The notes under the pieces: model-generated
Database searches by the model: none
Told to the model about the DNA's origin: nothing
The model's input: the letters and a program-made list of their open reading frames with translations, nothing else
Part shown: piece by piece, positions 4,334-28,519 of the stretch
How the letters are laid out: each line of letters opens with the position of its first letter
Position numbering within the stretch: position 1 is the first letter of the stretch
Position numbers and translations under genes: made by a program
Assembly: GCA_027450185.1 (NCBI GenBank)
Contig: DAIDKF010000010.1
Location: forward strand, 23,297 to 72,990
Origin: Granulicella sp.
GTDB taxonomy: Bacteria > Acidobacteriota > Terriglobia > Terriglobales > Acidobacteriaceae
DNA: 49,694 bases
Direction of reading: 5' to 3'

Positions 4334-5401
4334 TCACTGAAGTTTTTTTAGCTCCTCAGATGCTTCGCCCGGCTGCAGGGGACGGAAGCCGACCTTCCGC
4401 ATCTCGGGTGAGCCAATAATGTCCTGCACATCCTTGGAAAGCAGAAATTCGCAGAAGGCCTTTAACCATGGATCCAATGCCTTGCCGGGCTCCTTATTGA
4501 TGTTGATGCCAATCGCTGAAGCCATTGGATGCAGCGGTCCTTCGACGGTACCGTCGGAAAGAGTTCCCTTGTTGTCGATCACCATGGGGACGAACTTGAT
4601 GCGAGGACCGTAATCCTTGAGGTGAGCCCACGTCGTCACACCATTCATCGGCGCCGTATTATTCCAGTAGTCCATCAGCACCATGCCGAAGGCATCCTGC
4701 GCCACTGCATTGATCGCGTCTTCTTCGCTGGGGACCCACTCAACTTTGCTGGAAAACGGGTATCCACCAAATTTGTCACGCATTTCATCTATCATCGCGA
4801 GAATCGCATGAGTGTCACGGGTGACATAGGGATGAATTGGCAGCGGCGCGATGTCGCCCCCGACACCGAGTTGCGACCAATGCGTGATATCACCCTTGTG
4901 GCCGCCTGTCGTAAAGACGCTAGCCACTTGATCCAACGTAATCTGCTTAATTGGATTGGTTGCATTCACCCAAACCCCAGTAGAAAGTTTATTGTTGGGG
5001 TTCGAGTCGTAACCGATTTTGATATAGGTCGGCTCATAGCCGAAGCGCTCGACAAACTGGTCTACCTCTGGTCGCCGGTTACCGCGTCCGATGGGTCCAA
5101 ACGCCGACTTCTCGCTGACCAAACCCTCCACTGAGAGGGTCGATCCCATCATGATTTTCTTGAACTTAATATTGGGTTCAAGCTCAGCCCATCTCGCATC
5201 AATCTTTTTAAACAGTGGGATCAGCACATCGTTTCCAGCGACGAACACGGTGTCCGGGCCAACGGTGTAAGGCCGGTCTTCCGGCACGGAGAGCGGCCGC
5301 GGCGTGAAGGGCTTCAACGAGGGATCCTGTGCTTGCGCATTGAGCAGCAGCCCCATCGCCGCGGACGAAATGACCAAACAAACTCGGCTTATCTTCTTCA
5401 T
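4334..5401 (-). CDS. SBP1: PstS-like periplasmic solute-binding protein
   Basis: A 355-residue exported protein with a signal peptide ending NAQA|QDP (about residue 24). The remaining sequence follows the PstS/PBP-like fold: FVAGND near the start of lobe 1, GPIGRGNR at the position of the first binding loop, INPIKQITLDQVASVF-type text (NPIKQITLDQ) common to the family, HWSQLGVGG, and a C-terminal FLLSKDVQDIIG helix. It starts 3 nt after the stop of SBP2, so the two are co-transcribed. It is the most divergent of the ten together with SBP2: the LTGEW motif of SBP3/4/6-like members is missing. No transporter subunits are nearby. Ligand unknown; phosphate-like anions are only a family-based guess. 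Confidence 0.85.
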   Translation of the reverse strand: MKKISRVCLVISSAAMGLLLNAQAQDPSLKPFTPRPLSVPEDRPYTVGPDTVFVAGNDVLIPLFKKIDARWAELEPNIKFKKIMMGSTLSVEGLVSEKSAFGPIGRGNRRPEVDQFVERFGYEPTYIKIGYDSNPNNKLSTGVWVNATNPIKQITLDQVASVFTTGGHKGDITHWSQLGVGGDIAPLPIHPYVTRDTHAILAMIDEMRDKFGGYPFSSKVEWVPSEEDAINAVAQDAFGMVLMDYWNNTAPMNGVTTWAHLKDYGPRIKFVPMVIDNKGTLSDGTVEGPLHPMASAIGININKEPGKALDPWLKAFCEFLLSKDVQDIIGSPEMRKVGFRPLQPGEASEELKKLQ

Positions 5402-5404
5402 GTG

Positions 5405-6583
5405 TTACTCGTTTCCAATGGGTTCAGGCGAGGGGAAGGGAAAGTTGAGCTTTGGTCCCTGTTTGGAACGAGGGGCCCAAGTCTTGGCTCGGTCCAGCCG
5501 TTCAAGCTCCTGGTCGACGTCGTGCTTATTGAGCGGGAGGTAGCCTTTGGGATCGGCTGCAATTGCTTCCTGCCCTTGCTTCGAGAGAACCATCTTTACG
5601 TACTCCGCCATCAGCGGATCAATGGGAGTGCCAGGCTCGCGGCGAATGTAGAAATACAGGTCGCGAGGATAGGGATAACGGTCAGCGATGATGTCCTCGG
5701 CGCTTCCCGTTGTCATTCCCTTGCCGTCGGTTGCGGGCATCGGCACAACGCGCAAATCCTTATCCAGGGCGTTGAGCGGGAGGATCCCAATAGCCGCGCG
5801 ATCATGCTCAACCGCCTTTGCAACTTCCTTGTAGGTGAGGTACTGCTCATAGTTCGGGGAAAAGACATGACCGGGAAATGGCCCGAAGTGGCGGTACATC
5901 ATGTACTCACCCATGTATTCATCCTGGGGCCGCTGATAGGCGTCCCAGTAGAGTCCGGTCGGATGAATCGTGAGCTCTCCGCCTGCCGCGTGCGGATGGC
6001 CTAGCTGCTGCCACGAAGTAATGTCGCCTGTGCCTGCCCCTGTTGAGAAAATGCTCGCTACCTGCCCCTCCGTAATAGAAGGCAGCGTGTTCTCGCGGTT
6101 CGTCACGATGCTCAAAGGGCTTATCTTTGCTCCTGGCGTGAGTGAGCCGTGTCCAACACGAATGATCAGAGCCGCGACCGGATCTTTCTTCGAACCATAT
6201 ATTTTTTCGTACGGCAGAAGTTCAAGCAGAGTTGCCCCACCGCCCTCAGGTGCCAGCAGCGTCATGTCATAGGTAATAGCGGGTATCGCCGTTCCATTGC
6301 CCTTAAGAATCGGCGTTAATCGGATCCCGGGGTGCGTTCTCTCGAACAACGCGTTCCAGCGCGATATCATGCCGGACATATCGTCGAAGCCGACAATCCT
6401 GATCGAGCCATCCCGCATCACGTATCCGCGATCCTTCGGCACTTTTACCTGCTGGGGCTTGTACTCCGGAAGGGATTGATCGACGTACTTCATTCGGCTC
6501 TGTGCAGCCATTTGGGTGGTTATGAGCAGACTCACTGCGAAAAGTAGTTCCGCGTATGGTCGGTGGAAAAAAGATTTCATCAT
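5405..6583 (-). CDS. SBP2: PstS-like periplasmic solute-binding protein
   Basis: A 392-residue exported protein with a long n-region, a hydrophobic core and cleavage at MAA|QSR (about residue 28). Two adjacent Met codons (6583 and 6580) follow GGAG; the second has better spacing. Family features are IRIVGFDDM at the first lobe-1 loop, a MTLLAPEGGG loop, SPLSIVTNRENTLPSITEGQVASIFSTG in pieces (for example EGQVASIFSTG), SWQQLG, and a C-terminal VLSKQGQEAIAADP then YLPL, typical of PstS relatives. The segment after the hinge has an unusually long Tyr-rich insertion (GLYWDAYQRPQDEY). It lies between SBP3 (258 bp upstream) and SBP1 (3 nt downstream). Ligand unknown. Confidence 0.85.
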   Translation of the reverse strand: MMKSFFHRPYAELLFAVSLLITTQMAAQSRMKYVDQSLPEYKPQQVKVPKDRGYVMRDGSIRIVGFDDMSGMISRWNALFERTHPGIRLTPILKGNGTAIPAITYDMTLLAPEGGGATLLELLPYEKIYGSKKDPVAALIIRVGHGSLTPGAKISPLSIVTNRENTLPSITEGQVASIFSTGAGTGDITSWQQLGHPHAAGGELTIHPTGLYWDAYQRPQDEYMGEYMMYRHFGPFPGHVFSPNYEQYLTYKEVAKAVEHDRAAIGILPLNALDKDLRVVPMPATDGKGMTTGSAEDIIADRYPYPRDLYFYIRREPGTPIDPLMAEYVKMVLSKQGQEAIAADPKGYLPLNKHDVDQELERLDRAKTWAPRSKQGPKLNFPFPSPEPIGNE

Positions 6584-6841: not shown

Positions 6842-8044
6842 TTACTTTTCGGCCGCGTCCAGCCTAGCGAGTCCGTCGCGGGCAGCTTTCTCTGTTAGCG
6901 GAAGGTACTTTCCGTCCTGCTCGATCAACTCCTGGCCCTGCCTGCTCAAGATGAAGCGGATGAACTCTGCCACTCTTGGCTCCAGTGGCGTATCTGTGTT
7001 GCTGGTTGCGTATGCATAGATCCTGTCGAACAGCGGGTAAGATCGGTTCTGCAATGTACTGATTGTGTACGGAATAAACGGGCCTGCGTCTGTCCAACCG
7101 ACCTCCAGCAGCTTGCCAGCACCCGCTGCTCCATTCAAAGCCACAGTCGGTGCTGCAACGATTCCGATCCCATATTTATCCTTTGCAATATCAATATTCA
7201 TATTGCGAGAGAGCTTGCCATCTTTGGATACATAATTTGCGTAAGTGTGCATGTTTTCATTCCATTTATCGCTGCCCTGCAATATCCAGTCCGAGATCTC
7301 CGAAGCCTGGTGATAACGGAGATTCAGCCCATAGACATCGATCGTCTGATCGGCCCATTCGCCAGTTAACCCCAGCTGTCCCCACGTGCGGATATTCTTA
7401 TCAGCACCGCGCTTCCATTCGTTGTGCCAACTGGTGCCTTCCCATCCGCCATCGCGTGCGGCTCCGAAGATCCCATCCAACTGCGTCATGGAAATATGTG
7501 TCAGGGGATTGTCCTTGCTCACCAGGACCCCAAAGCCTGGCTGCCAGCCGGGAACATCATATGACCCGGTGGCGATGTCGATCTCCAACGGATCGTGATT
7601 CGTATAGCGCTCATATAGTTGCAGTTCGCTAAACGTTACTTTGCGCCCGATCCCCATATCGCTGACGCCGAACACCAGAGCAGGAACGGCAGCCTCGGTG
7701 GTCTTCATGTGCCATTCGATCTTCACACCGGGTTGATACTTTTGGAATGCTTCTTCCCATAGCTGGCCGATGCGGCCGTCCGTGACGTAGTTCGATCCCC
7801 ACATCCGAATAGTTCCACTTACTTGTTGTTTCGGCTTGTAATCCGGAAGCCCACTGAGGTCGAACTTTTCCGTATAGGCTATGCGTTTGCCTGCAAGCTC
7901 CATCTTGCGCGCGCGAGCCGCCTGCATATCCATTCCATTCGAACTGGTCCCGTCGCCAGACGGAGTGCTATTCTGCGCCACTGTTGTGAAGCACGCCGCC
8001 GCACAAAGTAACGCGGCGCCGATGGCTATATTTCCTCTGAACAT
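6842..8044 (-). CDS. SBP3: PstS-like periplasmic solute-binding protein
   Basis: A 400-residue protein preceded by GAGGAG 8 nt before the ATG. The signal peptide ends TTVA|QNS. After a Ser/Gly-rich linker come IRMWGSNYV, then GVSDMGIGRKV, SKDNPLTHISMTQLDGIF, a Gly/Trp-rich insertion (GGWEGTSW), IRTWGQLGLTGEW, SDKWNEN, AKDKYGIGI, and the C-terminal FILSRQGQELIEQDGKYLPL. It shares the GGW insertion, SDKWNEN and KDKYGI blocks with SBP4 in the other array, so these two are the closest cross-array pair. It is probably the first gene of the minus-strand unit, with a 5' region facing the response regulator gene at 8312. Confidence 0.88.
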   Translation of the reverse strand: MFRGNIAIGAALLCAAACFTTVAQNSTPSGDGTSSNGMDMQAARARKMELAGKRIAYTEKFDLSGLPDYKPKQQVSGTIRMWGSNYVTDGRIGQLWEEAFQKYQPGVKIEWHMKTTEAAVPALVFGVSDMGIGRKVTFSELQLYERYTNHDPLEIDIATGSYDVPGWQPGFGVLVSKDNPLTHISMTQLDGIFGAARDGGWEGTSWHNEWKRGADKNIRTWGQLGLTGEWADQTIDVYGLNLRYHQASEISDWILQGSDKWNENMHTYANYVSKDGKLSRNMNIDIAKDKYGIGIVAAPTVALNGAAGAGKLLEVGWTDAGPFIPYTISTLQNRSYPLFDRIYAYATSNTDTPLEPRVAEFIRFILSRQGQELIEQDGKYLPLTEKAARDGLARLDAAEK

Positions 8045-8198: not shown

Positions 8199-8311
8199 GT
8201 AAGCCCAGCAGCTCCTGCGGTTCTTCGCAGAGTTGCCACGGACAGAGTGATTTTGCGTTTTCCCGAGCCAACTTCAGGCACGATTAAGGCATCTTGAGCG
8301 AAAATTGGCCA

Positions 8312-8992
8312 ATGAGAGTTCTGGTCGTTGAAGACGAACTACGGCTTGCCGCCAATATCGTGGCGGGCCTTCGAGAGGCAGGCTTCGCTGTCGACCATGC
8401 TGCCGATGGTCTGGCGGCTTCAGCCTATGCGGAACAGGATCTCTTCGACCTCATCGTTCTCGACCTCATGTTACCGGGCCGGGACGGAAAGAGCGTGCTC
8501 CGGACCTTACGGGCCAGAGGAATTCACAGCCCTGTTCTGATTCTCACCGCTCAGGAAGGCAAAGCCTCTACCATCGAGTTACTGAATGCGGGAGCAGACG
8601 ACTACCTTGCAAAACCGTTCGATCTTGGTGAGCTGATCGCACGCGCGAAGGCACTGATCCGGCGGTCCAAGGGAAAATCTTCTCCAGTTTTGCAGGTAGG
8701 CGAACTGAGTATCGATACGGTTCGGCAGACGGTCACGCGTGACCTCCGCACCTTCGACCTGTCTCCCACCGAGTATCGCATTCTTGAGTATCTCGCCCAT
8801 CGTCCCCGGGCGGTTGTCTCCAAGAAAGAGTTGCTCGAGCACCTCTATGACTACGACTGGGAGCATCATTCGAATGTCATCGAAGCACATATCTCAAACC
8901 TTCGGCGCAAGCTAACCTCGGCTGAGGAAGAGCCCATCATTGAAACCCTAAGGCACCGTGGCTATCGACTCCGGGTGGAAGAAGTGAGATGA
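8312..8992 (+). CDS. OmpR/PhoB-family response regulator (RR1)
   Basis: A 226-residue DNA-binding response regulator starting MRVLVVEDE; an upstream in-frame TTG at 8294 is less likely because family members start at this Met. The receiver domain (about 1-118) has the acidic pair ED, phospho-acceptor Asp51 in VLDLMLPG, Thr in LTAQ and the KPF lysine. The C-terminal winged helix (about 128-225) shows LSPTEYRILEYLA and SNVIEAHISNLRRKL, the OmpR recognition-helix region. Its stop overlaps the kinase start by 4 bp (ATGA), so the pair is translationally coupled. Divergent from SBP3, it is a good candidate regulator of the SBP arrays, but this is inferred from position only. Confidence 0.93.
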   Translation: MRVLVVEDELRLAANIVAGLREAGFAVDHAADGLAASAYAEQDLFDLIVLDLMLPGRDGKSVLRTLRARGIHSPVLILTAQEGKASTIELLNAGADDYLAKPFDLGELIARAKALIRRSKGKSSPVLQVGELSIDTVRQTVTRDLRTFDLSPTEYRILEYLAHRPRAVVSKKELLEHLYDYDWEHHSNVIEAHISNLRRKLTSAEEEPIIETLRHRGYRLRVEEVR

Positions 8993-10392
8993 CATCCAGC
9001 GCATCCATCACTCGCCGTATCACGTCTTCTGTTCTGGCCCTGGAGCTTCTTGCGGCGCTTGTACTCATTGCAACCGTCGCGAACCACGAGCGGGATGTGC
9101 AATTCACCGTCTTCAAGACGAACCTGCGCGCAAGCGCCAATGCACTCTTCGGAACCCTTCAGGAAGCTGAAAACAAGGGTGGTAGCATTGCCCTCGATTC
9201 TAGCGCTCGGTCACTGCCTGCAGCAGCCGTGTACAGGGTGTCCGACGGAAATGGAAACGTTCTGGGCATACAGGGACCGGCGCCCCTCATTGAAGTAGCG
9301 CCTGGAACATTCATCAAACTGATGGTTAATGGTCAACCTTATCTCTTTTACAGTATGAGCGGAGAACGTGCGATCGATCCGGGGAAGCCCTTTGCCGTCT
9401 ACCATCATGTTCGCATCATCTACGGACTTCCAACGAAACGAGTCTGGCATGAGGTCGTCGAAGCTGTTCGCTTCTTCGCGTTTGCCACTCTCTTGCTCCT
9501 TGGCACGACCGCCTTCTTCCTTACCTGGCTTATCCGAAAACTTCTCACGCCGGTACGAGAGTTGGCGCTTGAGGCTGACCGGATCAACACAGATACCTGG
9601 TTCTTCAATGCGCCCCAAAGTAGCAAGCGTTTTATGGAGCTGCGACCTCTTGCGTCAGCCATCGAGAAGTCCATCCATCGTCTCCAGCGCTCCTTTGAGC
9701 AGCAACGGAGATTTACCAGCGATGCGGCACATGAGCTCAAGACCGATCTCGCGGTTATCAAATCTTCTTTACAGGTTCTCAGCATGAAGCGGCGAACAGT
9801 GGAGGAGTATGAGCACGGCATTGCGGGATCACTGGAGGACCTGAAACGGCTTGAATCGACGGTACAAAAGATGTTGGCGTTGGCGCGCCTCGAACAGGCT
9901 CCGACGATCCAGAATCAAAGCTGCGACTTCTCCGAAGTTGTGCTCGAGTCGGTTGCCTTGAACCAGCCCTTCGCAGAGATCAGAGAGCTGACGATCGTCC
10001 CATCCGGTACGGAGCTAGCCGTGCAGGTTCCGGTCGGTAAAAAGGATGCTCTCCTGCTCTGTGCCAACGTCTTTATGAACGCACTACAACATTCGCCTTC
10101 GCACGGCCATATAGATGTCATGATGACGCAAACGCCTGGATCGGTTTGTTTGAAGGTCCGCGACCGTGGGCCGGGCATTGAAGAAGAGGATCGACCAATG
10201 CTCTTCGACGCGTTCTATCGTGGCGATACGTCGCGAAGCCGCGAAACAGGTGGCACGGGCTTGGGCCTTTCCATCTGCAAAGCAATTTGCGATCGCTCCG
10301 GTGGCAGCATCTCCATCAGCAACCATCCGGAGGGCGGAGCACTAGTCGACATCCTATTGCCGGTTCTACCAGATGATCCCCCGGCCGTGTGA
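8989..10392 (+). CDS. Sensor histidine kinase (HK1)
   Basis: A 467-residue inner-membrane kinase. Membrane spans lie near residues 14-31 and 160-182, flanking a periplasmic sensor region of about 125 residues; then come a HAMP-like linker (LLTPVRELALEADRI) and a HisKA dimerisation domain with His248 in AAHELKTDL. The usual Pro of the HELxTP motif is Asp253 here, while the Thr needed for phosphatase action is kept. The ATPase domain has the N box (FMNALQHSP), G1 (DRGPGIEEED) and G2 (GGTGLGLSI). The periplasmic ligand is unknown. It overlaps RR1 by 4 bp. A strong 12-bp inverted repeat follows it. Confidence 0.93.
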   Translation: MTSSASITRRITSSVLALELLAALVLIATVANHERDVQFTVFKTNLRASANALFGTLQEAENKGGSIALDSSARSLPAAAVYRVSDGNGNVLGIQGPAPLIEVAPGTFIKLMVNGQPYLFYSMSGERAIDPGKPFAVYHHVRIIYGLPTKRVWHEVVEAVRFFAFATLLLLGTTAFFLTWLIRKLLTPVRELALEADRINTDTWFFNAPQSSKRFMELRPLASAIEKSIHRLQRSFEQQRRFTSDAAHELKTDLAVIKSSLQVLSMKRRTVEEYEHGIAGSLEDLKRLESTVQKMLALARLEQAPTIQNQSCDFSEVVLESVALNQPFAEIRELTIVPSGTELAVQVPVGKKDALLLCANVFMNALQHSPSHGHIDVMMTQTPGSVCLKVRDRGPGIEEEDRPMLFDAFYRGDTSRSRETGGTGLGLSICKAICDRSGGSISISNHPEGGALVDILLPVLPDDPPAV

Positions 10393-10567: not shown

Positions 10568-11581
10568 TTATTTACTCGACGGCGCAATGACCAAAAGCGA
10601 AAAAGTATTGGGCAGCACCGGTCCCCGTCGCACTCCTGGAGTCACCGGACCAAATTTCGCGCTCACCACGTAGATTCGATGGGTAAGCATGTTGAGCCCC
10701 ATGTTGCGCGATCCAACTGGCGTGGCGAGACTTTGAATAACATGGTACTGGTCCGGGCTATCCTGGTGAATGACTGTCAGGCTTCCGTCTGCATTCGAAG
10801 CAAATGCATTCAGGGTTCCCGGATCGTAACCAGCCCCATCCACACCCTTGCCGATTGGCACCGTTGCGACCACCTTGCCCGTATCGTAATCCGAGATGGC
10901 CATGACGCCGCTTCGACAACCACTAAACAGCCGATGATGTGCAGTGTCTATCGCCATTGATACTGGCATCTGACAGGGAGCAGTAGGCCAGCGCCGTGTG
11001 ACGGTTGCCGACTTGGTGTCGATCTCAATGACCTCGTTCTTGTCCATCAAGTTCGCGTAGAGTTTTCCGCCGTCCGCCACCGCTGCATACTCCGGCTTTC
11101 CCCCCAAAGCAAGATTCGTGATGAACTCACCTGACTTGGCATCGATAACCGTTGAGGAGTTCGCGTCTCCGTTCAAGCTGAAGACGCGCTCGGATACAGG
11201 GTCAAATACAATTGCATCGGCGTCCTCCGCGGCTGGGATTCGCTTCAGTTCCTTGTACGTCTGCGCATCAAACATCACAACGGATTTGTCTTCGCTGGAT
11301 GTCGCGAAGCCGTGGCCGGTGCCGGTTGCAATAGCTGTCCCATGCGCTCCGTGAATATTATCGACTTCGCCAATCTGCTTAGCCGAGTCTTCATTGATTA
11401 CGAGGACCCGTGTTTCACGAGCGATGAATAGGCGGTGACCCGCAGGATCGGGAACGACATAATCCCAACCGCCGCTCCCACCAAGAAGATGTCGCTGGGT
11501 AATCTCGTAGGTAGGGGACTGTGAATACGCCACTCCTGTGGCGGCTGTCATCATCACTAATAAACATAGTCTTGTGTGCAC
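10568..11581 (-). CDS. Exported YVTN-type beta-propeller protein (propeller 1)
   Basis: A 337-residue protein starting at a GTG (11581) preceded by GGGAGG with 6-nt spacing; upstream in-frame ATGs lack this support. The signal peptide ends AYS|QSP. The rest is repeated blades of the pattern hydrophobic-DP-xx-RLFxx with D-xx-S/T turns (for example VFDPVSERVFSLNG, AIDTAHHRLFSGC, MFDAQTYKEL), the signature of YVTN/Ncl-like seven-bladed propellers in the periplasm. Such proteins usually bind partners or ligands rather than catalyse. It is convergent with HK1. A paralogue-like propeller lies at 14225 beside the second two-component system, suggesting the propellers work with these sensors (inference). 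Confidence 0.85.
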   Translation of the reverse strand: MHTRLCLLVMMTAATGVAYSQSPTYEITQRHLLGGSGGWDYVVPDPAGHRLFIARETRVLVINEDSAKQIGEVDNIHGAHGTAIATGTGHGFATSSEDKSVVMFDAQTYKELKRIPAAEDADAIVFDPVSERVFSLNGDANSSTVIDAKSGEFITNLALGGKPEYAAVADGGKLYANLMDKNEVIEIDTKSATVTRRWPTAPCQMPVSMAIDTAHHRLFSGCRSGVMAISDYDTGKVVATVPIGKGVDGAGYDPGTLNAFASNADGSLTVIHQDSPDQYHVIQSLATPVGSRNMGLNMLTHRIYVVSAKFGPVTPGVRRGPVLPNTFSLLVIAPSSK

Positions 11582-17183: not shown

Positions 17184-18263
17184 GTGAAAAGGTTGTTAGC
17201 GGCAGTGGTCATTATTGGATGTGCGGCAAGTGTGCTTGCCCAGATGCCGGATATCAACCAGATCCCCAAGTATGCACCGCGGGTAAAAGTTGCGGGGGCC
17301 ATGCGAGTGTACGGCACCGACTTGAAGGGGCAGATGGTCATCTGGGAGCAGGCCTTCCAGAAGTTTCATCCGGACGTGGTATGGGAGAACAGTTTTGCGA
17401 CCTCGAGCGAGGGCGGCATTGCGGGAATGTATATTGGCATCTCCGATATGGCTCCCATGGGCGATGACGCAAAGATTACCGACGTGATGCCGTTCTATAA
17501 CGTATTTCATTACCTGCCGACGGAGTACTCGGTGGCAACTGGAGGGTACGAGAAGCGGGGAACCCTCTGGGCGATTCAGATCGTCGTCAACAAGGATAAT
17601 CCGCTGACGAAGTTGACGATGGAGCAACTGGCAGATATTTTCGGCGCGGAACGGACGGGCGGTTGGGATGGAATTACATATACCGGCAGGTATGCGCGAA
17701 GCGCGAAGTCCAACATTCGAACCTGGGGTCAGTTAGGCTTGACGGGCGAGTGGGCGGACAAGCCGATTCAGACCTACGGTTACTGTGCTCCAGGGTTTGC
17801 GATTGCATTTCAGCGGAGACTGTTTCACTGGAGCGATAAGTGGAATGAAAACTTTAAGGAGTATGTCGAAGAGAGGATGATTCCCCCCGGGGATCCGGAC
17901 GGGCCGGAGGTGCAGAGCGAAAGAATGTACGAGGCATTATCGAAGGACAAATACGGTATTGCGTGGGGGCCTGTCCTGCACAGCAAAGACTATCCGTCCG
18001 TGAAGCAGATCGATCTGGCTGAAACTGCAGCGGGGCCATATCTGGCGCTAACCGAGGCCAATGTACAGAACCGCACGTATCCTTTCATCCGTGATGCTTA
18101 CATTTATCTGAACCAGGCTCCGGATCGGCCGCTCGATCCGAAGGTCGCAGAGTTTATGCGATTTATTTATAGCCGGGAGGGGCAGGAACTGGTGCGAGAT
18201 CACGGCATGTACTACCCGCTTCCGTACAGCATGATCAAGCAACAACTGGCGAAAATCCGATGA
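17184..18263 (+). CDS. SBP4: PstS-like periplasmic solute-binding protein
   Basis: First gene of the plus-strand array. Starts at GTG 17184 with GGAGGG 8 nt upstream; 359 residues; signal peptide ending SVLA|QMP. Family blocks are MRVYGTDLKGQM, GISDMAPMGDD, VNKDNPLTKLTMEQLADIFG, the GGWDG insertion, IRTWGQLGLTGEW, SDKWNEN, SKDKYGI, and C-terminal FIYSREGQELV then YYPLP. It is closest to SBP3 of the minus array by shared insertions. The usual PstS Ser-Gly-Thr phosphate loop is replaced by YGYCAPGFAI. The stop overlaps SBP5 by 4 bp. The 207-bp upstream region shared with the MFS gene should contain the operon promoter. Confidence 0.9.
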   Translation: MKRLLAAVVIIGCAASVLAQMPDINQIPKYAPRVKVAGAMRVYGTDLKGQMVIWEQAFQKFHPDVVWENSFATSSEGGIAGMYIGISDMAPMGDDAKITDVMPFYNVFHYLPTEYSVATGGYEKRGTLWAIQIVVNKDNPLTKLTMEQLADIFGAERTGGWDGITYTGRYARSAKSNIRTWGQLGLTGEWADKPIQTYGYCAPGFAIAFQRRLFHWSDKWNENFKEYVEERMIPPGDPDGPEVQSERMYEALSKDKYGIAWGPVLHSKDYPSVKQIDLAETAAGPYLALTEANVQNRTYPFIRDAYIYLNQAPDRPLDPKVAEFMRFIYSREGQELVRDHGMYYPLPYSMIKQQLAKIR

Positions 18264-19231
18264 ACATAAGTCGAATGGTTGCAGGAGCGTTATTGTGCAT
18301 TGCAGTTGCTGGTCTGAATGCGCAGGATGTCACCGTGCGTGTGTGGTGGCATGGACATCATGGGATCTATCACGGACAGGCGCGTGCAGACCTGGGGCGC
18401 GTTGCGACAGCATGGGAGCACGAGTTTGCAAAGACACATCCGGAGGTGCACTTTGCGAACACAGAGGTTGGCGACGAGGCTGCCTTGGGTGGGTTGTATA
18501 CCGGTGTCGCAGACGTGGCGCTGATGGACCGTCCGCCGCTAGCGATAGAGGTGGACGGCTACCAACAGGGCGCCGGGCAAGATCCGACCGGCGTGACGAT
18601 CGGAACCGGGAGTTTACGAACCGCTCAGGATGCCCCCGCATTGGCGATTGTAGTGGCTCCGGGAAATCCACTAAAGGAGATTTCGCTGGCACAACTCGAC
18701 GCTGTATTCGATGCGGATCATCGCAGGGGACTCGATCGAGTTCATACCTGGGGAGACCTGGGACTAACCGGAGTATGGGCGAACCGGCCAGTGCATCTGT
18801 ATGGGTTTGGTCTCAATGATGAGCAAAGCTTTCTCTTTGAGCGCGACGTGATGAAAGGTAGCCAAAAATGGCGCGAGGGACTGCATGAGTTCCATACGGC
18901 TGCGATGGTGAGTTCTGCGGTGGCGAGAGATGCCGATGGGATCGGAATCGCCTCGATGGACGGCGTCGCCGGCGTTCGCGTCCTGGCGGTGAAAAGTGAC
19001 TCCGGCGATGCTGTGCAGCCGACTGCGGAGACGTTGGGCCTCGGAACCTATTCGTTGGCGCGCACCCTCTCTGCCTATTTCAACTCAGGTGCAGCAGAGC
19101 AGACGCGGAAGGCAGTGCAGGAATTTCTGGAATATGCGTTGAGTCCTGAAGGCCAGGCCGCGGTGCAGGCGAACGGGTACATAGCACTAAGCGAGAATGC
19201 GGCGAAGCGAAGTAAGGAGGCATTGCAGTGA
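18260..19231 (+). CDS. SBP5: PstS-like periplasmic solute-binding protein
   Basis: A 323-residue protein starting inside the SBP4 stop (ATGA overlap). The signal peptide ends GLNA|QDV. The first lobe loop is unusual: VRVWWHGHHGIYHG carries four His in twelve residues where relatives have a WG-x-G/N loop, which could support metal binding (inference). Other family blocks are VGDEAALGGLYTGVADVAL, APGNPLKEISLAQLDAVFD, HTWGDLGLTGVW, ARDADGIGI, and C-terminal YALSPEGQAAVQANGYIAL. The Ser-Gly-Thr loop is replaced by YGFGLNDEQSF. No permease or ATPase nearby. Ligand unknown. Confidence 0.88.
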   Translation: MNISRMVAGALLCIAVAGLNAQDVTVRVWWHGHHGIYHGQARADLGRVATAWEHEFAKTHPEVHFANTEVGDEAALGGLYTGVADVALMDRPPLAIEVDGYQQGAGQDPTGVTIGTGSLRTAQDAPALAIVVAPGNPLKEISLAQLDAVFDADHRRGLDRVHTWGDLGLTGVWANRPVHLYGFGLNDEQSFLFERDVMKGSQKWREGLHEFHTAAMVSSAVARDADGIGIASMDGVAGVRVLAVKSDSGDAVQPTAETLGLGTYSLARTLSAYFNSGAAEQTRKAVQEFLEYALSPEGQAAVQANGYIALSENAAKRSKEALQ

Positions 19232-20235
19232 AGATGCGATGGATGCTGGCAGCTTGTCTGTGCGGAACCGCAGTAGGTCAGGGGGAACATTGGGCGCAGA
19301 AGTTAGCGCCGTATAAGCCCGAGACACAGGTGCACGGTCTGATTCGAACCTACGGCAACAACTACATTCCGCAGCTGGTAAAGCAGTGGGAGGCGGAGTT
19401 TCAAAAATTCGAGCCGGAGGTGACGTTCCAGAATAATCTTCCGGGAACAGAAGCCGCCATGGCAGGTGTTTACAGCGGTGTGGCCGATGTGTCCTTCGTT
19501 GGGCGCGAAGGCTATGCTCCGGAGATCGAAGGCTTCGAAGAGGTCAAGCGCTACCCGCCCCTCGGCGTCGAAATCAGCTCGGGCAGCTTCAATACGCCTC
19601 ACAAGACATTCTCGTTGCAGGTGTTTGTGCATCGTGATTCACCTGTGACCCAACTCACCATGGAGCAGTGCAAGGAAATCTTTGGCGGCGGCGAGAAGAG
19701 GATTCGCACCTGGGGGGAACTTGGAGTGAAAGGACCCCAGGCATCGCACGCCATTCATGTGTATGGGTATAACTTCGACACCGGGATGGCGGGGTACTTC
19801 AACCGTGTAGTGCTGGGCGGCTCCGGAAGATGGAATGAGGACTTGAAGGACTACGACAACGGTCATCAGCCTGACGGAGAGGTGATTAATGCCGGCGTAT
19901 ACATACTTCAGGCGCTCGCGAAAGATGCGGATGGAATTGCGTTTGCGAACGTTCTTTATGAAAACCCGCAGGTCAAGACGGTTGCGCTGGCGATGACGGC
20001 CAAAGGCCCTTATGTTGAGCCGACTCGGGAGACGGTGTGGTCGCGAGCATATCCTATCTCGCGGTTCACGATGGCCTATGCCGACCCGCGACCGGGCAAA
20101 GGACTCGATCCTGCGGTCAAGGAGTTTTTGCGGTTTCTGGTGAGCCGCGAGAGCATGGAACTGGTAGAGGCAGATGGGGCGTACCTGCCGATCAATCCGA
20201 CTGTCCAACGGGAACAGTTGGAGCTCCTGAAGTGA
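19228..20235 (+). CDS. SBP6: PstS-like periplasmic solute-binding protein
   Basis: A 335-residue protein beginning at GTG 19228, overlapping the SBP5 stop (GTGA); an ATG two codons on is an alternative. A short signal peptide ends AVG|QGE; LAAC inside it looks like a lipobox, but the hydrophobic stretch before it is too short. Family blocks are IRTYGNNYIPQL, PGTEAAMAGVYSGVADVSFVGRE, HRDSPVTQLTMEQCKEIFGG, IRTWGELGVKG, AKDADGIAF, then FLVSRESMELVEADGAYLPI. The anion loop is replaced by YGYNFDTGMAGYF. Coupled to SBP5 and SBP7 by 4-bp overlaps. Ligand unknown. Confidence 0.88.
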   Translation: MKMRWMLAACLCGTAVGQGEHWAQKLAPYKPETQVHGLIRTYGNNYIPQLVKQWEAEFQKFEPEVTFQNNLPGTEAAMAGVYSGVADVSFVGREGYAPEIEGFEEVKRYPPLGVEISSGSFNTPHKTFSLQVFVHRDSPVTQLTMEQCKEIFGGGEKRIRTWGELGVKGPQASHAIHVYGYNFDTGMAGYFNRVVLGGSGRWNEDLKDYDNGHQPDGEVINAGVYILQALAKDADGIAFANVLYENPQVKTVALAMTAKGPYVEPTRETVWSRAYPISRFTMAYADPRPGKGLDPAVKEFLRFLVSRESMELVEADGAYLPINPTVQREQLELLK

Positions 20236-21215
20236 AAGCATCGGCGCGCGTGGTGGCTGCTGCCACGCTTTTTCTTGCAGGAGCTGCCGGCTGCATCCGC
20301 GCCCAATCCCCGCAGACGTTGGTCAGAGTCTGGGGATACAAGGGGATGGAGCCGTTGATGCTGCGCTGGGAAGCCGCCTACGAGCGTCAACATCCTTCGG
20401 TGCATTTTGAAAATCATTTTCACGGTGCGGCTGCTGTGGCCGCAGGGCTTTATGACGGCGCAGCAGACGTAGTCGTAATGGGGCGAGAGATGTGGACGGC
20501 AGATTCGATGGCCTTCCACTGGGTGTTTCAATACGCGCCGTTTCGTGTGGAGGTCTTGGCCGCCGGAACGGGTGCTCCTCCGCCAAGTTATTCTCCGGTC
20601 GTGATTGTGAATCGTGAAAATCCACTGCAACAGATCTCGATGGCGCAGTTGGATGCCATCTTCGGAAGCCTCCATAAGGTGGCTCCTGGAAACCTTCGGC
20701 AGTGGAGTGAGCTGGGCGTGGATGGTGCATTGGCTCAACGTGCGATCAAGCCAGTAGGGTTCAGCGAGGATGAGGCTCTGGGAGTGTTCTGGCGGAAGCG
20801 CGTCTTGAGGGAAGACTACAAGCCAAATCCGGCGAGCGGTCTGTTGCGCTCAGAGGCTGACGTAGTTCGAGCGGTCGAAACGAATTCGGCGGCAATCGGC
20901 TATGCGAGCGGAACTGCGGCGAACTCTTCGCAAGGTATTAGGGTGATAGCCGTCGATGGTGTCGCCCCCACCGCACTGACTATTGCGAACTCGACCTACC
21001 CACTAAGCCGCCGCGTTTCCCTGTATATAAACCGGAAACCAGAAGCCCCCATTGAGCCGGCCGTGGAAGGATTTCTTTTTTTCTGTCTGAGCGACGCGGC
21101 ACAGACAGAGATTCATGCCAATGAGGGATATATCTCTTTACCCACTGCAACGAGACAACGAATGGAACAAAGAATTCGTGGTCCGTGGGATGGTAAGGAA
21201 GGGTGGAAGCAATGA
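20232..21215 (+). CDS. SBP7: PstS-like periplasmic solute-binding protein
   Basis: A 327-residue protein starting at GTG 20232, which overlaps the SBP6 stop (GTGA). The frame stays open 65 codons upstream inside SBP6, but only the GTG places a proper signal peptide first: a hydrophobic core, then AAGC and IRA|QSP. AAGC is a weak lipobox, so a lipoprotein is possible. Blocks are VRVWGYKGMEPL, FHGAAAVAAGLYDGAADVVVMGRE, NRENPLQQISMAQLDAIFG, QWSELGVDG, and C-terminal FFCLSDAAQTEIHANEGYISL. It is more divergent: the DGIG block is reduced to AAIGYASG. Ligand unknown. Confidence 0.87.
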   Translation: MKASARVVAAATLFLAGAAGCIRAQSPQTLVRVWGYKGMEPLMLRWEAAYERQHPSVHFENHFHGAAAVAAGLYDGAADVVVMGREMWTADSMAFHWVFQYAPFRVEVLAAGTGAPPPSYSPVVIVNRENPLQQISMAQLDAIFGSLHKVAPGNLRQWSELGVDGALAQRAIKPVGFSEDEALGVFWRKRVLREDYKPNPASGLLRSEADVVRAVETNSAAIGYASGTAANSSQGIRVIAVDGVAPTALTIANSTYPLSRRVSLYINRKPEAPIEPAVEGFLFFCLSDAAQTEIHANEGYISLPTATRQRMEQRIRGPWDGKEGWKQ

Positions 21216-22228
21216 GGGCCGCCGTCTGCCTCCTGGTCTTGTGTAGCGCGGCTGCAAGCGCGCAGAATCCGAAGCTGCCGCCCTATGTCGCGTCCAGGCA
21301 GGTGAGTGGAACGATCCGGGTGTGGGGTCATGGCGCGGCGGGGAAGGACTACATTGAGTCCCTCATGCGCGCGTGGGAGGAAGGCTTCGCTAAGGTCCAG
21401 CCGAACGTTCACTTCGAGAATGAGTTGTATGGAACCGCGAGCGCAGTGGGCGCGCTGTATACAGACAAAGGGGAGTTGGCCGTGATGGGCCGGGAGATAT
21501 GGCCCATGGAGACGGAAGCCTTTACCGATGTCAAAGGATATCCGCCCACAAGTGTAGATATCGTTACTGGAAGCGTTGATATCAGAAACAAGGAGTTCGC
21601 GCTGACCTTCGTGGTCAACGCAAAAAATCCATTGAAGCACCTATCGCTTGAAGACGTGCGCAGGATCTTCAGCGTAACGGCAAAGCCAGTAAAGACGTGG
21701 GGAGATCTGGGGCTAACCGGTGAATGGGCCCATACGCCGGTGCGTGCGTATGGATTCGAGATCGCGCGAGGGTTTGGGTATTACTTGCAGCAGCGAGCCT
21801 TCGGCGGGTCCGAAATATGGAATCCAGATCTGGTGGAAATGGCCGATCAACCGAAAGCCGAAGGAGGGCTGTATGATGCCGGGCAGCGGGTGGTGGATGC
21901 GGTCGCCGGAGACGCCGACGGGATCGGTTTTACCAGTGCCCTCTATCGCGCGGGCGGCGTGAGGGTTGTACCGCTTGGTCGGACCAGGTACGGCCCGTTT
22001 CTGCTGCCAACGCGTGACACTGTTGCCGCCCACTCCTATCCGCTGGTTCAGGTGATTACGGCGTTCTACGATAAGCGCGGCAAGGAGGCCCCCGTTGTTG
22101 AAGAGTTTTTGCGCTACGTTCTAAGCCGGCAGGGCCAGGCCGTGGTGGCAGCGGAAGGTGACTTTACTCCGCTAACCCCCCACCTTGCAGATCTAGAGCG
22201 TGCGAAGCTCCTGCATCCTGCGCCGTGA
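21212..22228 (+). CDS. SBP8: PstS-like periplasmic solute-binding protein
   Basis: A 338-residue protein; ATG at 21212 overlaps the SBP7 stop (ATGA) and follows GGAAGGG. The signal peptide ends ASA|QNP. Blocks are GTIRVWGHGAAGKDYI, LYGTASAVGALYTDKGELAVMGREI, VNAKNPLKHLSLEDVRRIF, KTWGDLGLTGEW, AGDADGIGF, and C-terminal VLSRQGQAVVAAEGDFTPL. The sequence is strikingly similar to SBP9 in the first lobe (WGHGA, WEEGFAK, YGTASA, GALYT, VNAKNPLK), pointing to a tandem duplication now split by the Cache-like gene. The anion loop is replaced by YGFEIARGFGYYL. Ligand unknown. Confidence 0.9.
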   Translation: MRAAVCLLVLCSAAASAQNPKLPPYVASRQVSGTIRVWGHGAAGKDYIESLMRAWEEGFAKVQPNVHFENELYGTASAVGALYTDKGELAVMGREIWPMETEAFTDVKGYPPTSVDIVTGSVDIRNKEFALTFVVNAKNPLKHLSLEDVRRIFSVTAKPVKTWGDLGLTGEWAHTPVRAYGFEIARGFGYYLQQRAFGGSEIWNPDLVEMADQPKAEGGLYDAGQRVVDAVAGDADGIGFTSALYRAGGVRVVPLGRTRYGPFLLPTRDTVAAHSYPLVQVITAFYDKRGKEAPVVEEFLRYVLSRQGQAVVAAEGDFTPLTPHLADLERAKLLHPAP

Positions 22229-22326: not shown

Positions 22327-22863
22327 ATGGAGACGATGAAGAATCGGAGAGTCATGTTTGCTATTACAGCGCTAGTGGCGCTGGGAGTTGCTGGCGTTGT
22401 TCATGGCCAGGAGACCCGCGCTCAAGCGGCGCTCGCGTTGCGTACTCCGGAACAGAAGGAGATGGACCCCACATTTACGACCGCCGCGCCATATGCACAG
22501 AAGTTGGTGGACAGAGCGTTGGCGGAGCATCCCGAGGTGTTACTGCTGGCCATCCATGCGGGTGCGCCCAAGTATGACATCATTGCGTCCAACTTCGGAC
22601 GTATCGGCAAGCTGGGAGATGAGGACGATCTTCGCTGCATTCATACCGGCAATGACAATCTGGAGGTGAACGAAAAGGGCAATCACTACGAAGACCAAAC
22701 GCCATTGCGCGACAAGAGTGGGAAGATTATCGGGGCGATTGGGATTGTGTTCAGCTACAAACCTGGCGATGACAAAATCGCACTACAGAAGATTGCAAAA
22801 GATGTAGCGAAGGAGATGCAGGCGCAGATCTCTAGTTCACACCAGCTGTTTGGTCCTGCATAG
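22327..22863 (+). CDS. Stand-alone exported Cache-like (PDC) sensor-domain protein
   Basis: A 178-residue protein starting at ATG 22327 after AAAGGA (an ATG three codons later is also possible). The signal peptide ends VHG|QET. The mature part, about 150 residues, has a helical start (APYAQKLVDRALAEHPEV), then LLAIHAG, ASNFGRIGKLGDEDDL, and the blade TPLRDKSGKIIGAIGIVF, a pattern typical of PAS/Cache periplasmic sensor domains. There is no transmembrane segment after the signal peptide and no output domain, so it is a free periplasmic ligand-binding module. It sits between SBP8 (98 bp upstream) and SBP9 (80 bp downstream). Probable role: ligand sensing or chaperoning within the array (inference). 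Confidence 0.75.
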   Translation: METMKNRRVMFAITALVALGVAGVVHGQETRAQAALALRTPEQKEMDPTFTTAAPYAQKLVDRALAEHPEVLLLAIHAGAPKYDIIASNFGRIGKLGDEDDLRCIHTGNDNLEVNEKGNHYEDQTPLRDKSGKIIGAIGIVFSYKPGDDKIALQKIAKDVAKEMQAQISSSHQLFGPA

Positions 22864-22892
22864 TCTTTCAAGATCTTTCGACTGCCAAAGTG

Positions 22893-22927
22893 AGGCCGAG
22901 GTGCGATGCGCCGACGGCCTTTGCTTT
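22893..22927 (+). terminator. Attenuator-like hairpin between the Cache gene and SBP9
   Basis: AGGCCG (22893-22898) pairs with CGGCCT (22915-22920), and an inner GGTGC/GCGCC stem with one G-T pair closes on GAT. TTGCTTT follows. It could be a partial terminator or an RNA-processing hairpin that lowers or separates expression of SBP9-SBP10 from the upstream genes. Confidence 0.35.
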
Positions 22928-22943
22928 GCGAGGAGCCAACAGG

Positions 22944-23990
22944 ATGAGACGAGCAATCACGATGCTGCTCTTCATTGCAATGAGCGCAGTGGCGCAGTCA
23001 CCCGAGCAAAGCGCTCTCTCCGCAATTCCGCCTTATCGGCCAGCCCATCAGGTAACAGGAACGATCCGGCTATGGGGTCATGGAGCGCCCGTGCTGGATT
23101 TCATGGGGATGTTGGTGAAGTCCTGGGAGGAAGGGTTTGCAAAGTTTCAGCCTGGGGTGAAGTTCGAGTACCGGATGTATGGAACCGCGAGTGCCATGGG
23201 AGCGCTCTATACGGGCGAAGGCGACATCGCGATCCTCGGACAGGAGATGTATCCGTTTGAAGTGAAGGCGTTTGAACAGGCTAAGGGATATGCGCCGACA
23301 GAGATTGAGATTGCCACGGGCAGCGTGGATGTGCGGAACTTCGATTTTGCGCTGGGACCATTTGTAAATGCGAAGAATCCCCTGAAGCAGATCACCCTCA
23401 ATCAAATGGATAGGGCATTTGCATTTCACGATGGCGGGCCCACTCGGAACATCGTGACGTGGGACAGGCTCGGGCTGACTGGACCGGAGTGGGCAGGAAA
23501 GCCGATTCATCTTTATGGATGGCGCGAATCGGACATCTTTTCGACCTGGATTGAACGGGCAGCGTTGCATGGAAGCCATCGCTGGCGGTGCGGGATGCGC
23601 CAGTACGCGCACATTCATCGCCCTGATGGAACGATCTACGACAGTGGACAGCAGATTCTGGACGATCTGGCAAAGGATCCGTATGGGCTGGCGCTGTCTA
23701 GCGTGCGTTACTTGAAGAGTGATGCTGTCAAACCGTTGCTGGTAGGCAGAACGGCTGACGGTCCGTTCGTTGCGGCCACCAAGGCGACCCTGATTGCGCG
23801 CCAGTATCCGCTGGGGAGAATTATTCCTGCGGAGATTGATCGCGCTCCCGGAAAGCAAGTTGATCCGGCTGTGCGCGAGTTCCTGTTATACATCCTGAGC
23901 CGCGAGGGCCAAGCCGATATTGTGCGCAATGGAAAATATCTGCCGATGGGACCACGCTTCGACGCGCGTGAGCGGGAGAAGCTGCAATGA
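22944..23990 (+). CDS. SBP9: PstS-like periplasmic solute-binding protein
   Basis: A 348-residue protein; ATG at 22944 has AGGAG 8 nt upstream. The frame is open 18 codons further back without a signal peptide. Cleavage is at AVA|QSP. Blocks are GTIRLWGHGAPVLDFM, MYGTASAMGALYTGEGDIAILGQEM, VNAKNPLKQITLNQMDRAF, TWDRLGLTGPEW, AKDPYGLAL, and C-terminal ILSREGQADIVRNGKYLPM. It pairs with SBP8 as the most similar neighbours in the array. The anion loop is replaced by YGWRESDIFSTW. The stop overlaps SBP10 by 4 bp. A hairpin lies 17 bp upstream. Confidence 0.9.
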   Translation: MRRAITMLLFIAMSAVAQSPEQSALSAIPPYRPAHQVTGTIRLWGHGAPVLDFMGMLVKSWEEGFAKFQPGVKFEYRMYGTASAMGALYTGEGDIAILGQEMYPFEVKAFEQAKGYAPTEIEIATGSVDVRNFDFALGPFVNAKNPLKQITLNQMDRAFAFHDGGPTRNIVTWDRLGLTGPEWAGKPIHLYGWRESDIFSTWIERAALHGSHRWRCGMRQYAHIHRPDGTIYDSGQQILDDLAKDPYGLALSSVRYLKSDAVKPLLVGRTADGPFVAATKATLIARQYPLGRIIPAEIDRAPGKQVDPAVREFLLYILSREGQADIVRNGKYLPMGPRFDAREREKLQ

Positions 23991-24919
23991 GGCGGCTGAT
24001 GGTCCTCGCTGCAGTGTTTGCAGGCGTCGTCGCGTCTGCGCAGCAGCCACTTCCGATCCGCAGTATGGGCGACAGCGAGATGCGCGGAACCCTGAAACAG
24101 TGGGAGGTGGCCTATCAGCGCCTGCATCCCACTGTTCACTTTGACGACAAGCTCTGGGGCACTGCCACGGGCATGGCCGGGATCACTACCGGAGCGTCGG
24201 ACATCACGTTGCTGGGGCGGCCTGTCACCGCAAATGAGGTCATCGGATTCGAGTGGGTGCACCGAGTAAAGCCTCTGGGACTCGAAATAGCGAGAGGGCC
24301 GCTTTGGGGCGAGGGGAAGTCACCCGCGTTGGCCGTGATGGTATCGAGGCGCAATCCAATCAAGGCGCTGACCCTCGCGCAGTTGGCCGCCGTACTCGGT
24401 TGTCCCACCGACGCATCCCGGCAGGTCACCTGGGCGATGCTTGGCGCAACAGGTGTGTGGGCTACTCGGCCGGTGCACGCCTACTTGTTTGACGATCAAA
24501 CCGGGACGGGGGTATTTCTGCAGCGAACAGTGCAGGGAAGCAAGGACTGTTGGAATTGGTCCATCGTTCAGGAGTTCAAGGATAAGCCTGGCAATCCGGC
24601 CGCTAACCAGATTGTTGCAGCCTTGCGCAAAGATCGCGATGGGCTGGCAGTGGGGACGATGACCTCTGCGGGGGTGGCAGCACGCGTCGTGTCCGTAGAC
24701 GGTATACAGCCAACAACGCAAACCCTGATCGATGGGAGTTACCCGTTCGGGCGAGGCATCTATGTCTACATCGATCCGGCTACGCTCAAGAGTGACAAGA
24801 TCGTCAACTTTCTACGCTTCTGCTTGAGTCAGGACGGCCAGAAGGTGCTTGCGGCACAGGGAGATTTTCTTCCGCTGGATACTTCGACTGCGGCCCACGA
24901 ACTTACAAAGTTACAGTGA
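23987..24919 (+). CDS. SBP10: PstS-like periplasmic solute-binding protein
   Basis: Last gene of the plus array and the shortest SBP, 310 residues, starting in the SBP9 stop (ATGA). The signal peptide ends ASA|QQP. The mature protein begins almost directly with MGDSEMRGTLKQWEVAYQ, lacking the first strand and WG loop present in other members. Then come LWGTATGMAGITTGASDITLLGRP, SRRNPIKALTLAQLAAVLG, TWAMLGATGVW, RKDRDGLAVG, and C-terminal FCLSQDGQKVLAAQGDFLPL. FDDQTGTGVF at the anion loop has a Gly-Thr-Gly that is the nearest approach to the PstS SGT motif in this array. Ligand unknown. Confidence 0.87.
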   Translation: MRRLMVLAAVFAGVVASAQQPLPIRSMGDSEMRGTLKQWEVAYQRLHPTVHFDDKLWGTATGMAGITTGASDITLLGRPVTANEVIGFEWVHRVKPLGLEIARGPLWGEGKSPALAVMVSRRNPIKALTLAQLAAVLGCPTDASRQVTWAMLGATGVWATRPVHAYLFDDQTGTGVFLQRTVQGSKDCWNWSIVQEFKDKPGNPAANQIVAALRKDRDGLAVGTMTSAGVAARVVSVDGIQPTTQTLIDGSYPFGRGIYVYIDPATLKSDKIVNFLRFCLSQDGQKVLAAQGDFLPLDTSTAAHELTKLQ

Positions 24920-28501: not shown

Positions 28502-28519
28502 AGTGAAGACTCCCTCATC

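Follow-up and report, generated by a model that had tools for sequence, protein, structure and literature searches.

Ten PstS-derived binding proteins in a Granulicella genome are part of a recurrent module with TonB receptors, Cache-like proteins and propellers

Orphan solute-binding proteins (SBPs) of the Bug/TctC type, which belong to the TTT family, occur in Bordetella, Cupriavidus and Rhodoplanes (PMC5994714, PMC5812351). A count of 434 such genes and an array of nine in Rhodoplanes are described, together with a suggested role in sensing (PMC5994714), and citrate-loaded BctC is required for transport and signalling alike (PMC5812351). We analysed a stretch of 49,694 nucleotides from Granulicella sp. 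(the window; C10:23297-72990 of a metagenome-assembled genome (MAG) of 2.17 Mb in 145 contigs, 54% complete), which carries an array of ten SBPs (S1 to S10) derived from the phosphate-binding protein PstS. The array belongs to a wider module with signs of joint regulation. In what follows, G numbers denote comparison genomes, L numbers fetched stretches and C numbers contigs. Gene calls in the fetched loci are mechanical open reading frames (ORFs), with overlaps settled by length and profile matches.

Orphan Bug/TctC expansions are the closest precedent for this array. The two are alike in their many SBPs with few or no membrane partners, their tandem arrays and their two-component links. In the window, SBPs without ATP-binding cassette (ABC) or TctAB partners lie beside two-component genes and close to a secondary carrier, TctAB having been judged from the larger window ORFs put to Pfam. 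The ligands of orphan Bug/TctC proteins are, in these accounts, carboxylates, and a carboxylate may be the ligand here. Unlike the Bug/TctC proteins, the window SBPs belong to PF12849 and are tied to a TonB receptor, a Cache-like protein, propellers and a common DNA box, and two genera have retained the same SBP subfamilies, in part with their gene order. No TctC match for the window SBPs was found in Pfam at E 0.1, and their best matches were to PBP_like_2. The module may work like an orphan Bug/TctC system and is not a member of that family.

The array shares its domain family and fold with PstS, but differs from the Pst system in the loss of the phosphate site, in its ten divergent paralogues, and in that no PstCAB or PhoU was found in the window and the 20 kb upstream. 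E. coli YncD-YncE consists of a TonB receptor and a propeller, and here, too, YncE-type propellers are paired with a TonB receptor; we know of no SBP array, Cache-like protein or carrier that goes with YncD-YncE. The small exported PAS/Cache-like fold of the module resembles the periplasmic PAS domains of DcuS and CitA, although the sequence match is weak and homology is a candidate only. Unlike those domains, it occurs alone or joined to a TonB receptor or a propeller, and never to a kinase in the loci seen. In outline, the locus also resembles BctDE-BctCBA and TctDE-TctCBA in having a two-component pair beside an SBP and a non-ABC secondary transporter, whereas its carrier is not TctAB, its kinases fit CzcS-type models best and an outer-membrane receptor is added (PMC5812351).

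Ten divergent binding proteins without the phosphate site

A first-pass annotation of the window had listed ten exported PstS-like proteins, three encoded on the minus and seven on the plus strand, and this was borne out. All ten reached the Pfam gathering score of PBP_like_2 (PF12849; 27.4-57.1 bits, cut-off 27), and each has a signal-peptide-like N-terminus as judged by eye. The two arrays face each other (4334-8044, minus; 17148-24919, plus). The kinases, propellers and Cache-like protein placed among them in the same annotation were likewise confirmed. Two response regulator/histidine kinase pairs (RR1/HK1, 8294-10392, plus; RR2/HK2, 11980-14141, minus), two propellers and one carrier of the major facilitator superfamily (MFS) lie between the arrays, and a small Cache-like gene interrupts the plus array. 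Genes S4 to S8 overlap consecutively by 4 bp, as do S9 and S10, in a pattern such as would be seen in a translationally coupled operon. S7 was listed as an ORF from 20037, and a start at 20232 gives the 4-bp overlap with the preceding stop.

Among solved structures, the phosphate-binding proteins 4omb and 4pqj are nearest to the SBPs in fold as well as in sequence (E 4e-74). An AlphaFold2 model of S8 matched the nearest solved structures with a TM-score of 0.57-0.61 and a root mean square deviation (rmsd) of 6.5 Å across both lobes, which perhaps reflects different lobe closure. The residues with which PstS contacts phosphate have known roles. The first-loop Ser and Thr, the third-loop Arg and the Ser-Gly-Thr are each kept in none of the ten window SBPs; the second-region Arg is kept in seven, and S10 comes nearest to PstS with Thr-Gly-Thr. 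All of these residues are kept in three of four reference PstS proteins, namely those adjoining pst genes, and the fourth lacks the Arg. The NCBIfam PstS model (TIGR02136) gave 42-78 bits, against a cut-off of 206.6, for the four window SBPs scored. A pstB gene is present in seven of nine genomes, including all six of high quality; it never lies in a fetched module locus and in G342 is 1.36 Mb from the module. Its absence from our MAG means little because the MAG is 54% complete. By these residues the ten SBPs do not look like phosphate binders. Standard phosphate binding, raised as an alternative in the first-pass annotation, was rejected, as none of the ten keeps the phosphate-loop residues.

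We placed 55 SBP domains on a tree made by a quick method with no bootstrap, in which the rows L014 18863 and L082 1 are cut by the ends of their stretches. The tree omits four short first domains of double SBPs (one already by the length filter) and the cut-off SBP L164 19391 (length filter). The window SBPs require ten label changes on this tree, which rules out recent tandem duplication of the ten. For six of them (S1, S2, S4, S6, S9 and S10) the partner is in each case a different G342 protein, with support of 97-100; S5 groups with one G342 and one G427 protein (97), and S3 stands in a trio with proteins from C11 of the same MAG and from G342 (92); S7 and S8 have no clear partner. The gene order S4-S5-S6 and S9-S10, along transcription, is identical in our genome and G342, which has ten SBP genes with eleven domains. 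One G342 protein of 805 aa holds two full SBP domains (L155:16476-18893), and a double SBP from Burkholderiaceae combines a shortened and a full domain (L057:2609-4195). The separate partners in G342 therefore argue for an old set of distinct receptors kept together, and not for a burst of redundancy. The family expansion proposed earlier is real and non-redundant. The further proposal of ligand-specific modules agrees with the deep divergence of the ten proteins.

Recurrence of the module and its carriers

The genome contains 13 such SBPs in all, ten on C10 and three on C11. In the C11 cluster the SBPs lie with an Oar-type TonB receptor (CarboxypepD_reg, OMP_b-brl_4), a propeller and a second Cache-like protein (59% identical), and malonate decarboxylase genes lie about 1 kb away. 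A first search of 101 genomes gave matches at E <1e-60 outside our genome in four (G048, G075, G056 and G014). In a sample of 300 genomes of the family, nine, ours included, had SBP members at E <1e-60; of the 20 family genomes with SBP matches, eleven gave values typical of ordinary PstS (about E 1e-19 to 1e-25), and we did not take them as members. Outside the Burkholderiaceae we compared eleven SBP loci, those of C10 and C11 of our genome and of G342, G427, G056, G014, G048, G075, G899, G918 and G949. A TonB receptor is present in ten of these, a propeller in nine and a Cache-like protein in eight, and an ABC ATPase or Pst permease, by BLAST and motif scan, in none, so that SBP arrays lacking pstCAB do recur with the same neighbours, as the first-pass annotation had suggested checking. 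The recurrent set comprises PstS-derived SBPs, a TonB receptor (mostly Oar-type), a PAS/Cache-like protein and YncE-type propellers, with an OmpR/HisKA pair in many genomes. The receptors adjoining SBPs in G918 and G949 differ in type from the Oar-like ones. A compact unit of PepSY_TM, TonB receptor and SBP, found in two g32 genomes (L161:6277-10971, L162:9501-14223), may be a minimal form of the module and may point to metal chelates. Searches of the open-access literature yielded no description of this module, nor of PstS-derived SBPs coupled to a TonB receptor and a secondary carrier.

BLAST with Pst and other ABC parts and a scan for Walker A and LSGG motifs detected no ABC ATPase, permease or PhoU in the window and the 20 kb upstream; this search, of few probes and one motif pair, could miss odd permeases. 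The same search found pst genes beside three reference PstS proteins, and the larger window ORFs put to Pfam included no ABC parts. A hidden ABC transporter just outside the window was sought and not seen in the 20 kb upstream, the searched part of the contig starting 3.3 kb after its beginning and stopping 6 kb before its end. The earlier statement that no ABC transporter lies beside the SBPs is thus upheld, while the wider reading that there is no transporter is probably wrong. The MFS carrier (15657-16976) lies in the cluster and has a promoter region and regulatory box in common with the seven-gene array, carboxylate-type secondary carriers occur at the same place in several relatives, and TonB receptors accompany nearly every SBP locus.

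Among these carriers is a subclass of SCFA_trans (65-78% identical to the G014 copy). The genomes G056, G014, G342 and G427 each hold a single SCFA_trans gene, which is of this subclass and lies in the module. SCFA_trans occurs in 36 of the 300 family genomes, and we viewed the context of nine high-scoring and four lower-scoring copies. Eight of the nine copies with at least 365 bits, which form one subclass, adjoin module genes, including those of G785 and G885 and two in G848, of which one adjoins a propeller only. None of the four lower-scoring copies examined, from other subclasses, had a Cache-like protein, propeller, SBP or RR2 nearby. In G848 a TonB receptor, a Cache-like gene, SCFA_trans, a second Cache-like gene and a propeller follow one another on one strand, in what looks like an operon. 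DctA lies inside the SBP array of G342 (615 bits, cut-off 513) and TcuC in the G075 locus (730 bits, cut-off 445). In G326, whose module lacks SBPs, both DctA and a bicupin oxalate decarboxylase lie no more than 10 kb from the Cache gene, and the DctA of G419 is 99% identical to that of G326. An MFS carrier and a PrpD-like protein, both below NCBIfam cut-offs, lie near the module in G048.

The Cache-like protein of the window (about 22336-22863) had no Pfam or NCBIfam match. A search of solved structures with this protein alone gave nothing useful, a profile scan of named genomes gave no conserved stretch, and a single-protein scan gave one relative, in Pandoraea terrae, the other 155 of its 156 pattern matches encoding none. 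Profile A3 detects the protein in 16 of 396 genomes of its own phylum and in 11 of 299 genomes of the Burkholderiaceae, the family of Pandoraea terrae (one marginal, E 4e-4), of which five were fetched with context. In Pandoraea terrae (L057) two TonB receptors have Cache-like domains as their N-terminal portion, with two copies in one of the receptors, and this fusion also occurs in G602, G589 and G649 of the same family. Fusion to a propeller is seen in G404, G147 and G318. Four loci encode fusions to YncE-type propellers (L084:9820-11403, L087:8727-10208, L088:9904-11370 and L092:8590-10056), with distant Oar-type TonB receptors adjoining, a two-component pair at three of the four and no SBP seen within 20 kb; Cache-propeller fusion loci without SBPs are a sister form of the module. 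Given both kinds of fusion, Cache-like protein, receptor and propeller would form one functional unit. The best model of the Cache-like protein has a PAS/GAF-like fold (predicted local distance difference test (pLDDT) 85). The best solved match of its profile is DcuS, a sensor of C4-dicarboxylates; the match is weak (E 0.04) and covers the second half of the domain, so that it gives no more than a hint of kinship with the carboxylate sensors DcuS and CitA.

Two-component genes, the 11-bp box and other features of the window

Ten fetched genomes from four other genera have, next to the module, a regulator 72-82% identical to RR2, and the nearest regulator in G048, G075 and G918 is only 34-49% identical. 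A kinase 34% identical to HK1 adjoins the S1/S2 orthologues in G342. Repeats of TTCA at 11-bp steps were first sighted upstream of propeller 2 and RR2. The pattern TTCA-N7-TTCA gave 37 intergenic matches in 14 module loci, overlapping matches of one triple box being counted separately, against about 0.56 expected from block shuffles. These boxes precede TonB receptors, SBPs, Cache-like genes, SCFA_trans, propellers and RR2. A further 23 matches lie inside called ORFs of the 14 loci. Four of the loci have no intergenic box; in L014, L178 and L048 high-scoring copies lie ahead of module genes, within ORF ends that look over-called, and L047 lacks a copy.

A more independent test was to count the triple box TTCA-N7-TTCA-N7-TTCA in 15 whole genomes, which gave 34 sites against four for the reversed pattern. 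In the nine module genomes, 13 of 28 triple boxes fall inside the fetched module loci, which amount to 0.74% of bases; six control genomes, chosen for the lack of a strong SBP match whatever their Cache status, have six sites. Two of the three triple boxes of our own genome are at the two clusters, at window 17033-17058 and at C11:41684-41709 upstream of the TonB receptor, while the window copy between RR2 and propeller 2 is not above chance. RR2 is the likely binder of the box, as far as can be told from sequence. Identical triple repeats TTCACTGCAATTTCACTGTTAATTCA were also seen on contigs C14, C36, C70 and C114 of G848 and are probably a repeated element unrelated to the module.

Table 1. 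Position and assignment of features in the array region of the window
Feature	Position	Strand	Remarks
S1, PstS-derived binding protein	4334..5401	-	PBP_like_2 30.5 bits; pairs with L083 13439-14551 of G342, support 100
S2, PstS-derived binding protein	5405..6583	-	PBP_like_2 33.6 bits; pairs with L083 14554-15783, support 100
S3, PstS-derived binding protein	6842..8044	-	PBP_like_2 34.5 bits; trio with C11 and G342 members, support 92
RR1, OmpR-type response regulator	8294..8992	+	Response_reg and Trans_reg_C
HK1, sensor histidine kinase	8989..10392	+	HisKA and HATPase_c
YncE/YVTN-type propeller 1	10568..11650	-	TIGR03866 54 bits (below cut-off); YVTN repeat TIGR02276 37.5 bits (over cut-off)
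HK2, sensor kinase with HAMP	11980..13437	-	HAMP, HisKA, HATPase_c; TIGR01386 238 bits, cut-off 293 not reached
RR2, OmpR-type regulator	13368..14141	-	TIGR01387 248 bits, cut-off 279 not reached
Degenerate copy of regulatory box, RR2/propeller 2 gap	14151..14172	+	Position weight matrix score 10.0, within shuffled-sequence range: weak
YncE-type propeller 2	14225..15244	+	Copies 39-65% identical adjoin RR2 in relatives
MFS secondary carrier, divergent from seven-gene array	15657..16976	-	Sugar_tr/MFS_1; best NCBIfam TIGR00891 302 bits, cut-off 553 not reached
Triple box TTCA-N7-TTCA-N7-TTCA, promoter region common to MFS and S4	17033..17058 (C10:40329-40354)	-	Genome-wide pattern search; intergenic scan
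S4, PstS-derived binding protein	17148..18263	+	PBP_like_2 38.9 bits; pairs with L155 9811-10911, support 100
S5, PstS-derived binding protein	18260..19231	+	PBP_like_2 57.1 bits; trio with L155 8803 and L082 4342, support 97
S6, PstS-derived binding protein	19228..20235	+	PBP_like_2 45.4 bits; pairs with L155 7742, support 97
S7, PstS-derived binding protein	20232..21215	+	PBP_like_2 48 bits (scored as ORF 20037-21215); long branch, no clear partner
S8, PstS-derived binding protein	21212..22228	+	PBP_like_2 36.5 bits (scored as ORF 21203-22228); AlphaFold2 pLDDT 92; nearest solved fold 4omb
Small exported PAS/Cache-like protein	about 22336..22863	+	Profile A3 relatives in own phylum and Burkholderiaceae; start codon inferred
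S9, PstS-derived binding protein	22890..23990	+	PBP_like_2 27.4 bits; pairs with L155 14634, 68% identity, support 100
S10, PstS-derived binding protein	23987..24919	+	PBP_like_2 40.7 bits; pairs with L155 13675, support 100

Just upstream of the array, a DmsE-family decaheme cytochrome (L013:18153-19097; 259 bits, cut-off 192) is followed by a barrel protein at window 1-1434 that has weak family matches only and which we take to resemble MtrB/PioB. The two may form a porin-cytochrome pair that passes electrons across the outer membrane. The decaheme protein had one other match (30%, L050) among the annotated module loci, and neither gene was counted in the system. Downstream, positions 27725-32445 encode a ScdA_N/hemerythrin protein, a prismane (hybrid cluster) protein, a CRP-type regulator and an Fe-S membrane protein with Fer4_5, presumably a cluster of the nitrosative-stress kind. 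Two long overlapping minus-strand ORFs at 33568-37013 (538 and 642 aa), with no Pfam match, lie opposite shorter plus-strand ORFs before the gene for ribosomal protein L2 and are probably spurious.

What the module may do

We propose that the module takes up and senses small carboxylates, or metal complexes of these, by a TonB-linked route under two-component control, a reading to which we give about an even chance and whose ligand class we infer. It builds on what was computed here: the gene set and its recurrence, the loss of the phosphate site, the distinct conserved subfamilies, the fusions, the module-tied carriers and the common box. An Oar-type TonB receptor, encoded in the C11 cluster here and beside the array in relatives, would bring the ligand across the outer membrane. 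The PstS-derived SBPs, each with its own pocket, would capture it in the periplasm and hand it over to secondary carriers (the MFS protein here; DctA, TcuC and the SCFA_trans subclass in relatives) for passage across the inner membrane, and may also present it to a kinase. The PAS/Cache-like protein and the YncE-type propellers would be periplasmic accessories of the receptor, and RR2/HK2 would turn the gene set on via the 11-bp direct-repeat box.

Several observations weigh against this proposal. The window cluster itself has no TonB receptor, although the C11 cluster of the same genome has one, and the window MFS protein is only a distant member of its best-fitting family, TIGR00891 (Table 1). 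The carrier type varies between loci, and no carboxylate carrier was recognised in those of G899, G918 and G949. The ninth high-scoring SCFA_trans copy (G902, at a contig edge) has no Cache-like protein, propeller, SBP or RR2 on the available side. All that lies nearby is a TonB receptor of distant similarity (31% over 342 aa); since the control G017 also has such a receptor within 20 kb of SCFA_trans (26% over 342 aa), a distant receptor alone means nothing. Three of five models of the Cache-like protein had pLDDT <70, and the top hits of its fold search were varied PAS/GAF-like and other domains, with CitA only at rank 43. The box enrichment in the 14 loci is partly circular because the motif was chosen after inspection of upstream regions of the same module, and none of the three triple-box sites of G259 and G326 is at the module. 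An NMT1-type (NitT/TauT-like) ABC transporter with its own SBP adjoins the module in four of five fetched Burkholderiaceae loci, so the absence of ABC parts is not a universal rule; the fifth locus (G703, a 13-kb stretch at a contig end) has only a 40% identical ATPase.

Metals are the other ligand class to be considered. PepSY_TM genes adjoin the TonB receptor in G602, G918 and G949 (loci L158, L161 and L162), and in L161 and L162 also an SBP; the best models of RR2 and HK2 are of the CzcR/CzcS heavy-metal type; both point to metals, and the Pandoraea receptor passes the TonB-siderophore cut-off (229 against 223.5 bits). A multicopper oxidase and a resistance-nodulation-division (RND) efflux permease lie in the G342 neighbourhood. 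Yet the two-component scores stay under the curated cut-offs (Table 1), the RND permease scores higher with drug-type models (602 bits) than with those of CusA/CzcA (485 bits), the recurring carriers are of carboxylate families, and none of the neighbours run against Pfam or NCBIfam was identified as a metal importer, where no systematic search for one was made. A system for metal ions or chelates (iron, copper, lanthanides), and not for an organic acid as such, is in our view distinctly unlikely. We also think it unlikely, if somewhat less remote, that the module only senses, with the SBPs as ligand-specific co-receptors for HK1/HK2 or as signal sequestrants and the carriers as mere targets of regulation. 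Two kinases do lie between the arrays, the HK1-like kinase stays with the S1/S2 orthologues in G342, and citrate-loaded BctC with BctE offers a precedent (PMC5812351). On the other hand, carrier genes have promoter regions and boxes in common with SBP or Cache genes, ten receptors are many for two kinases, and TonB receptors would imply uptake.

That the SBPs are served by an ABC permease encoded elsewhere, such as one of the NMT1 type, could draw on the Burkholderiaceae loci, where SBP, ATPase and permease of this type adjoin the module, and on the 54% completeness of our genome, which leaves room for a permease elsewhere. G075 also has an NMT1-type SBP beside a kinase (L048:14347-15480), 33% identical to that of the Pandoraea module, with no ABC ATPase found in the 20-kb L048 locus. 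The NMT1-type transporter, however, brings its own SBP, and no ABC ATPase was found in any of the eleven SBP loci outside the Burkholderiaceae, which leaves this explanation with little probability. Hardly any remains for ordinary phosphate binders serving a distant pst operon: PstS is the nearest family and fold, pstB is found elsewhere in most of the genomes and the second-region Arg is mostly kept, but the other phosphate residues are gone from all ten proteins, the PstS model scores are far under the cut-off and no PhoU or Pst neighbours were found.

More tentatively, and with less than an even chance, the module might represent an undescribed class of envelope-spanning, non-ABC import. 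A TonB receptor would pass ligands to a rack of up to ten specialised PstS-derived SBPs, and these would in turn supply secondary carriers, all governed by a single two-component switch that acts through the 11-bp box, the rack being a periplasmic ligand-sorting array and not a set of redundant copies. The domain family alone would file the ten proteins as phosphate-binding PstS relatives, which the evidence here contradicts. The predicted box and the conserved subfamilies make the ligand, carrier and kinase partners of each receptor directly testable. If the proposal is true, proteins that once bound phosphate would many times over have become receptors for a different class of ligand, working together with TonB receptors and secondary carriers.

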